From Aquihabitans sp. G128 (GTDB taxonomy: Bacteria > Actinomycetota > Acidimicrobiia > Acidimicrobiales > Iamiaceae): DNA of 64,000 nt. The notes below the pieces were generated by a model, which saw nothing but the letters and a program-made list of their open reading frames with translations, did not search any database and was not told the DNA's origin. Position 1 is the stretch's first letter; each line of letters starts with the position of its first letter. A program made the translations under genes and the position numbers. This document shows positions 6,787 to 52,100 of this stretch, in pieces. The stretch lies in assembly GCF_019048865.1 (NCBI RefSeq), contig NZ_CP077604.1:4712001-4776000 (forward strand), written 5' to 3'.

Positions 6787-6839
6787 CCGAACTTGTCGCA
6801 GTTGTCGACCGTGGCGTCGGCCAACTGCGACAAGTTCGG
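6787..6839. repeat. Type A intergenic palindrome (inverted copy)
   Basis: Perfect 18-base arms CCGAACTTGTCGCAGTTG (6787-6804) and CAACTGCGACAAGTTCGG (6822-6839) enclose a 17-base loop. Flanks are C-rich (CCCACCCCG) on the left and G-rich on the right. It lies between two convergent genes and may terminate both transcripts. Arms and loop match the copies at 38468 and 38541 with the loop reverse-complemented, so this copy is inverted. Confidence 0.85.
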
Positions 6840-27458: not shown

Positions 27459-27502
27459 TTCCTGTCGATCGGGGGTCCTCTGCACCCCCCGATCGACAGG
27501 AA
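27459..27502. repeat. Intergenic palindrome between convergent genes
   Basis: Perfect 17-base arms TTCCTGTCGATCGGGGG (27459-27475) and CCCCCGATCGACAGGAA (27486-27502) with a ten-base loop. It lies between the enoyl-CoA hydratase and nuclease genes, which converge, so a bidirectional terminator is plausible although no T-run follows. Sequence differs from the GAACTT-bordered palindromes. Confidence 0.75.
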
Positions 27503-38467: not shown

Positions 38468-38520
38468 CCGAACTTGTCGCAGTTGGCCGACGCATCGGTC
38501 GACAACTGCGACGAGTTCCG
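38468..38520. repeat. Type A intergenic palindrome, copy 2
   Basis: Arms CCGAACTTGTCGCAGTTG (38468-38485) and CAACTGCGACGAGTTCCG (38503-38520), with loop GCCGACGCATCGGTCGA. Two arm mismatches. Start of a tandem pair with a 73-base period, between convergent qorB and GNAT genes. Confidence 0.85.
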
Positions 38521-38540: not shown

Positions 38541-38592
38541 CCGAACTTGTCGCAGTTGGCCGACGCATCGGTCGACAACTGCGACGAGTTCG
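38541..38592. repeat. Type A intergenic palindrome, copy 3 (tandem)
   Basis: Left arm at 38541-38558 and loop identical to copy 2; right arm 38576-38592 ends GAGTTCG. Start-to-start distance to copy 2 is 73 bases, so the unit was duplicated with about 20 bases of flank. Confidence 0.85.
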
Positions 38593-42826: not shown

Positions 42827-42935
42827 CGGCCAGCTCCCACGACCAGCCCCCCCGACGACCGGCCCACGTCGAGCCGCCTGACGGCCGGCCCACGTCGAGC
42901 CCCCCCGACGACCGCCCACGGCCACGACCGGTCGA

Positions 42936-42983
42936 AACTTGTGGGCCCACACCGCCGTTTCCGGCGGTCTCGGCCCACAAGTT
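42936..42983. repeat. Type B intergenic palindrome, inverted copy
   Basis: Outer arms AACTTGTGGGCC (42936-42947) and GGCCCACAAGTT (42972-42983); inner arms ACCGCCG (42951-42957) and CGGCGGT (42962-42968) around TTTC. Its reverse complement aligns with the element at 45288 over the whole length. Located between the MFS and TetR genes. Confidence 0.82.
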
Positions 42984-43051
42984 GGGTCGGGGGACGGGGG
43001 GACGGGGGGTCGGGCCGTCAGGGACGGTCCCACGCCGTAGCCTCCCCGTCG

Positions 43052-45203: not shown

Positions 45204-45255
45204 CGAACTTCGGGTCCACGGCCCGTGCGCGCAGGGGTGTGGGACCCAAAGTTCG
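45204..45255. repeat. Type C intergenic palindrome
   Basis: Arms CGAACTTCGGGTCC (45204-45217) and GGACCCAAAGTTCG (45242-45255), one mismatch, 24-base loop. Left flank CTCCTCGC, right flank AAGGGGCGGAGGGG. Shares the GAACTT border with types A and B. 32 bases from the type B copy. Confidence 0.8.
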
Positions 45256-45287: not shown

Positions 45288-45339
45288 CGAACTTGTGGGC
45301 GGAGAGCGCCGAAAACGGCGGTGTGGGCCCACAAGTTCG
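45288..45339. repeat. Type B intergenic palindrome, direct copy
   Basis: Arms CGAACTTGTGGGC (45288-45300) and GCCCACAAGTTCG (45327-45339), with an inner hairpin CGCCG-AAAA-CGGCG (45307-45320). Right flank is a long G-run. Matches the element at 42936 in reverse complement. Confidence 0.82.
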
Positions 45340-51900: not shown

Positions 51901-52072
51901 GTGGTAGGTTCCCGGGCGCAGTCAAGGGAAGCCGGTGTGAGTCCGGTGCGGTCCTCGCCACTGTGACCAGGGAGCGAAGCTGATCTCCACCACGGGAACT
52001 CCCGGGCTCCGGCCCGGCCGGGAAGGTGCAGCGGAGCGTCGATCTGGGAGCCAGGAGACCTGCTGCGCACGA
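51901..52072 (+). ncRNA. Cobalamin riboswitch
   Basis: Conserved blocks are present in order: GGGAAGCCGGTGTGAGTCCGG (51926-51946), GCCACTGTGACC (51957-51968), and the B12 box AGCCAGGAGACCTGC (52049-52063), with pairing stems between. It precedes cbtB (start 52101) and the cbtA operon, so cobalamin would turn down cobalt-uptake genes. Confidence 0.96.
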
Positions 52073-52100
52073 ACCACGAGTTGATGGAGAACCCTCCGAG

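Follow-up and report, generated by a model that had tools for sequence, protein, structure and literature searches.

A small palindrome in the genome of Aquihabitans sp. G128 (Acidimicrobiia, Iamiaceae; GTDB genus of Aquihabitans MAG JANXNS01) is one of many dispersed copies of a repeat, here called type A, that also flanks on both sides a gene for a DNA-mismatch-repair-like (Vsr-like) nuclease. Equally, other palindrome families in related bacteria flank relatives of that gene, which suggests a kind of repeat-spreading system that our searches of the open-access literature, judged largely by titles and starts of abstracts, did not find described. The association between palindromes and genes is shown, while cleavage, copying and dependence on the nuclease are inferred.

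Dispersed palindrome families of about 50 nt

The window, the 64,000-nt stretch at positions 4712001-4776000 of the single 4,938,963-bp contig, has been reported in an earlier note to hold three copies of a palindrome with shared arms and a conserved, directional loop, and this observation holds. The sequence at 6787-6839 has two perfect 18-nt arms round a 17-nt loop, while the copies at 38468 and 38541 share the 18-nt left arm, have right arms with one or two mismatches and carry a 17-nt loop that equals the reverse complement of the 6787 loop at 15 of 17 positions. Within the window, the 16-nt arm (<=3 mismatches) occurs 9 times against 0.71 expected from 100 shuffles, of which the largest count was 3. 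The palindromes of the window are:

6789..6837 (-), type A, 49-nt core with arms 6789-6804 and 6822-6837 and loop 6805-6821, the loop reading in the consensus direction on the - strand
38470..38518 (+), type A, copy 1 of a tandem pair with a period of 73 nt
38543..38591 (+), type A, copy 2 of the tandem pair, separated by a 24-nt spacer from copy 1 and identical to it at 49 of 49 positions
42935..42984 (+), type B, 50 nt, of the family flanking DUF559 gene 2 at about 2.169 Mb of the contig
45289..45338 (-), type B, 50 nt
45205..45254 (no strand assigned), type C, 50 nt, with the same GAACTT/AAGTTC ends, no cognate gene found
27459..27502 (no strand assigned), type D, 17-nt perfect arms and a 10-nt loop, with further D-like hairpins elsewhere in the genome sample, no cognate gene found

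Genome-wide, a script and an independent pattern search (49 matches on each strand, 0 control matches) both gave 49 copies of type A, all with a 17-nt loop although 9-29 nt was allowed, with the loop consensus GCCGACGCCACGGTCGA or its complement and a few diverged loops. The two ends of the contig (regions 20000-35000 and 4909500-4920500) repeat each other over 11,004 nt at 99.9% identity inside the regions compared, and the contig is therefore probably an untrimmed circular chromosome in which features near the ends are counted twice. Accordingly, 47 copies are distinct, comprising 41 distinct sequences. Identical 49-nt copies lie at 3029824/3084294/3533797, at 763940/4665112 (the latter beside DUF559 gene 1) and at 2937906/3533881, with flanks no more alike than background; the dispersed unit is therefore the palindrome itself. 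All but a handful of the arm matches are paired, which speaks against lone half-sites as in DNA uptake sequences.

The statement of the note that all copies lie between convergent genes holds for the window only. Of 33 sites genome-wide, 13 are convergent, 17 lie between co-directional genes, 2 are divergent and 1 lies in a called gene, against 55 convergent, 236 co-directional and 113 divergent among 404 intergenic gaps in the sample, as judged with a crude gene caller of our own. The interpretation of the note as a whole is partly supported: a duplicated, directional and dispersed element rather than an ordinary terminator is confirmed, whereas the search for a RAYT/IS200-type transposase, which the note had set as a check, found none in this genome (PF01797, 0 matches, while 5 of 14 control genomes gave a match).

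The same genome holds type B (GAACTTGTGGGC...GCCCACAAGTTC, 50 nt in 32 of 32 copies found in the regions analysed), type C (48 or 50 nt, 6 copies), type F (52 nt) and D- and E-like hairpins. A loose pattern with AACTT/AAGTT ends gave 119 forward matches here with 0 controls, and other species of the genus show their own versions of similar length. Tandem copies are spaced 23 nt most often, with 5 of 16 type A spacers being exactly 23 nt (9 of 16 within 23-25), 10 of 13 of type B, 2 of 3 of type C and 14 of 21 further B/C spacers. Spacers of 23 nt also appear beside cassettes of other species (loci L158, L190 and L198), and minor values near 34, 47 and 69 nt in different families and species hint at a possible helical-phase quantisation. 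The approximately 12 nt outside the palindrome are C-rich on the left and G-rich on the right, while convergent gaps without these motifs lack this skew (45 gaps, 0.03 and 0.06). Inner stem positions 14, 16 and 18 of type B often carry C.C or G.G mismatches, as if two half-arms were combined from different copies. A strand-specific RNA function was considered, as G.U versus A.C asymmetry in type B inner stems was suggestive (38 GT versus 12 AC), but C.C and G.G mismatches are as frequent (39 and 28) and type A shows no orientation preference relative to genes. Equally, the only Rfam match in the window is a cobalamin riboswitch (RF00174, 78 bits, 51902-52081), away from the palindromes, and no tRNA was found.

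Association with DUF559 genes

A cluster of type A copies at 4.665-4.670 Mb pointed to a gene with AbiEi_4, DUF559 and MTES_1575 domain matches. The genome has only three DUF559 matches, and each of the three genes is flanked on both sides by its own palindrome family. Gene 1 (4665345-4666268) lies between type A copies at 4665112 and 4665230 on one side and 4666317 on the other, gene 2 (match at 2169167-2169358) between type B copies at 2168088, 2168161 and 2168234 and at 2169468, and gene 3 (match at 348244-348435) between type F palindromes, which are also dispersed (3 in the 864-kb sample). In the following, G-numbers denote genomes of relatives and L-numbers single loci. The closest relative of gene 1 (68% identity) is found in G009, the nearest relative, beside a palindrome with the shared core GTCGCAGT, and 16 genome copies with that core were found by pattern. 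In L050, at about 560-615, a further degenerate palindrome (GAAGTGGTTGCAC...) occurs at the place where G009 carries a type A relative.

In 24 Iamiaceae genomes 60 DUF559 matches were listed, of which 53 were examined and 51 had sufficient flank. In 31 of these 51 loci the 5' and 3' flanks match each other better than the 99th percentile of mismatched pairs, and in 24 of the 31 the matched stretch holds a hairpin above all 30 shuffles. The seven failing the hairpin test are L162, L178, L179, L181, L190, L193 and L202, although L162 and L190 look palindromic by eye. While 20 of 51 loci did not pass the flank test, some at or below the threshold, such as L165 (gene 2 of this genome), L174, L191 and L204, still show related palindromes on both sides by eye. 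As controls, 2 of 274 ordinary genes of this genome passed, and random positions passed in 21, 20 and 50 of 500 (4-10%) in three genomes, where 16 of 20 DUF559 loci pass. Beyond the family, 47 of 119 Actinomycetota genomes have a DUF559 match; of 49 loci examined 45 were scorable, with 15 above their own 99th percentile (28), a lower threshold, and 9 above 34. The pattern is thus strong in Iamiaceae and patchy elsewhere.

To assess cognacy, the arms of 36 cassette families were searched in three genome samples (864 kb of this genome including the window, and 400 kb each of G020 and G014; the G020 sample is 8%). Families recur in the genome of their own cassette in 12 of 20 cells (3 of 3 here, 8 of 9 in G020, but only 1 of 8 in G014; 52 hits) and in another genome in 2 of 88 cells (7 hits), with 6 of these 7 hits belonging to a G003 family whose arm resembles a G020 family. 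By coordinates, none of the G020 or G014 stretches covers a listed DUF559 match. Protein and palindrome similarity correlate across 37 loci (Pearson 0.29, 0 of 5000 permutations), but the correlation is driven by close pairs and weak outside them (Spearman 0.11), and 16 of the 37 representatives were set by hand.

With respect to insertion history, the G005 cassette (palindrome, gene, palindrome, about 1.3 kb) lies in a convergent gap which here is about 50 nt and has no palindrome, and the G006 cassette appears likewise absent here. Other gaps hold different families in different species, with a G020 cassette against four type A copies here and G008 and G007 cassettes against two type B copies here, which also fits slow turnover or conversion at favoured places. 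Against recent hopping, the type A sites 4640671 and 3054358 have an orthologous palindrome in G009 with arms kept and loops diverged; copies can therefore be old and may be held by selection. A third orthologous gap holds unlike palindromes, and a fourth G009 site has none here but a different neighbour. We read this as slow turnover plus conservation or homogenisation of arms. A synteny comparison for empty sites with part of the window as query gave patchy synteny, and at 6787 the downstream neighbour differs in G007, G008 and G009, precluding a clean comparison there. The whole element is the palindrome, and no target-site duplication or junction, as would mark a MITE of a DDE element, could be resolved because the junctions are too diverged.

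The predicted protein of about 310 aa combines an N-terminal AbiEi-like winged helix with a C-terminal Vsr-like (DUF559/MTES_1575) nuclease. By profile comparison, the C-terminal half matches PDB 3hrl (5e-9) and 3r3p, 'mobile intron protein' (7.5e-4), whereas Vsr itself (1cw0) is matched only at E 0.1; the N-terminal half matches, weakly, abortive-infection (AbiGI-type) proteins. The 3r3p protein is a Vsr-like homing endonuclease. The 22 aligned proteins are 27-68% identical to gene 1, yet D237, E248, H255, D264 and G275 are invariant, the D/E/H/D residues being the putative catalytic set of an EDxHD-type nuclease. Many of the DUF559 proteins in L154-L205 end in Ala-Ala. The gene-1 protein has no match in the phage collection, and plasmid matches cover at most 60% of it, on the AbiEi side. 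In these plasmid records (H1-H20) the matches to the winged-helix part are annotated as type IV AbiEi antitoxins, and PADLOC calls the DUF559 fusions AbiEi.

A repeat-spreading model and its alternatives

With moderate confidence, we consider type A one of several families of about 48-52-nt non-autonomous palindromic repeats, each spread and maintained in trans by a cognate nuclease whose gene is flanked by the same palindromes. What the analysis shows is the dispersed family, the flanking of all three DUF559 genes of this genome by three different palindrome families (A, B and F), the same anatomy in most scorable relatives, the tie between dispersal of a family and presence of its cassette, a cassette absent at the orthologous gap and invariant putative catalytic residues. 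On the other hand, it is inferred from sequence alone that the winged helix recognises the palindrome, perhaps as an extruded hairpin because arms are kept and loops vary, that the nuclease cuts DNA at or about 11-12 nt outside the palindrome, as tandem copies are spaced 23 nt and C-rich/G-rich flanks reach about that far, and that repair or copying from another copy places the unit at new 3'-intergenic sites and homogenises old ones; any secondary role in ending or protecting transcripts is equally an inference. Against this scheme, no gene was found for types C and D.

Such a system would work like REP/RAYT, or like homing by gene conversion, but is not a member of REP/RAYT. REP/BIME/RAYT elements (REPtrons) share short palindromes in high copy, mostly downstream of genes and in arrays, a gene flanked by the repeats, and repeat-specific partner genes when several families coexist in one genome (Di Nocera et al., 2013, PMC3733652). 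Here, however, the partner is a Vsr-like nuclease with an AbiEi-like winged helix instead of a Y1 HUH transposase, the unit is 48-52 nt, direct arrays are spaced 23 nt, and the 49 copies, by eye, have GAAC../..GTTC ends without a GTAG/CGTC tag. PATEs of IS200/IS605 are likewise ends-only elements thought to be moved in trans (PMC7290912), but the PATE described there derives from IS200/605 ends with a Y1 TnpA, of which none was found here. Vsr-like homing or mobile-intron endonucleases are related by profile in the nuclease domain, while the gene described here lies in a palindrome-bounded intergenic cassette with an AbiEi-like domain, not in an intron. The AbiE type IV toxin-antitoxin shares the N-terminal domain, which matches AbiEi models, but here it is fused to a nuclease, and among gene 1 and the five proteins round it, including HlyD-like and LigB-like neighbours, no AbiEii nucleotidyltransferase was seen.

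Among the alternatives, the palindromes might be operators or chromosome-organising sites bound by the AbiEi-like winged helix and read genome-wide by the DUF559 protein, with the copies being regulatory or structural and not mobile. The AbiEi-like N-terminus, the palindromes on both sides of its own gene and the arms conserved at two orthologous sites while loops diverge fit this view, which we nevertheless consider unlikely, as copies lie mostly downstream of genes (30 of 33 sites follow at least one gene end, 2 are divergent), form tandem arrays and occur as exact copies at unrelated sites, a whole cassette is missing from an orthologous gap and the nuclease residues are invariant.

More doubtful are bidirectional transcription terminators or mRNA-end hairpins that share sequence by common descent or homogenisation, with an incidental link to DUF559. 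Although convergent gaps are enriched (13 of 33 sites versus 55 of 404 gaps), stems are strong and stem arms are kept in orthologue pairs, there is no T-run, the right flank being G-rich (45-78% G over 14 nt), 17 of 33 sites lie between co-directional genes with no orientation preference relative to the gene (++ 3/5, -- 5/3), the total length is fixed with a directional loop, and the cognate gene association is not explained. Improbable, too, are solo remnants of former DUF559 cassettes, left when recombination between the two flanking palindromes deletes the gene, without small-unit copying. The type A array of four copies and the type B pair do sit in gaps where other species hold a DUF559 cassette (L199; L156 and L164), but the palindromes in those shared gaps belong to different families, exact 49-nt copies have unrelated flanks, and 33 type A sites stand against one type A cassette. 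A REP-like element, as suggested by the note, moved by a RAYT/IS200-type Y1 transposase fits the high copy number and the intergenic, palindromic arrays but is very unlikely in the absence of a PF01797 match and of the GTAG/CGTC tag, and with 49-52 nt instead of 20-40.

Implications for palindromic repeats and defence annotation

A more far-reaching reading, held only tentatively at somewhat less than even chance, is a distinct class of prokaryotic mobile DNA comprising autonomous 'palindrome - AbiEi/Vsr-like nuclease - palindrome' cassettes plus swarms of about 50-nt solo palindromes copied by the cognate nuclease through hairpin recognition, flanking cuts and repair, common in Iamiaceae and present elsewhere in Actinomycetota, in which case many genes now labelled AbiEi antitoxin or DUF559 would be its enzymes. 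Within the literature searched as stated above, no paper linking DUF559/MTES_1575 or AbiEi genes to palindromic repeats was listed, and the 2013 paper that describes the MTES_1575 nuclease does not contain the word palindrome.

REP-like repeats are common bacterial repeats, and so far their dispersal has been tied to HUH transposases. A second, unrelated enzyme class with one palindrome family per gene would give a testable partner for orphan palindromes and a function for the DUF559/MTES_1575 nuclease fused to AbiEi, and equally a warning that defence annotation, such as the AbiEi calls of PADLOC, may be counting mobile-element genes.
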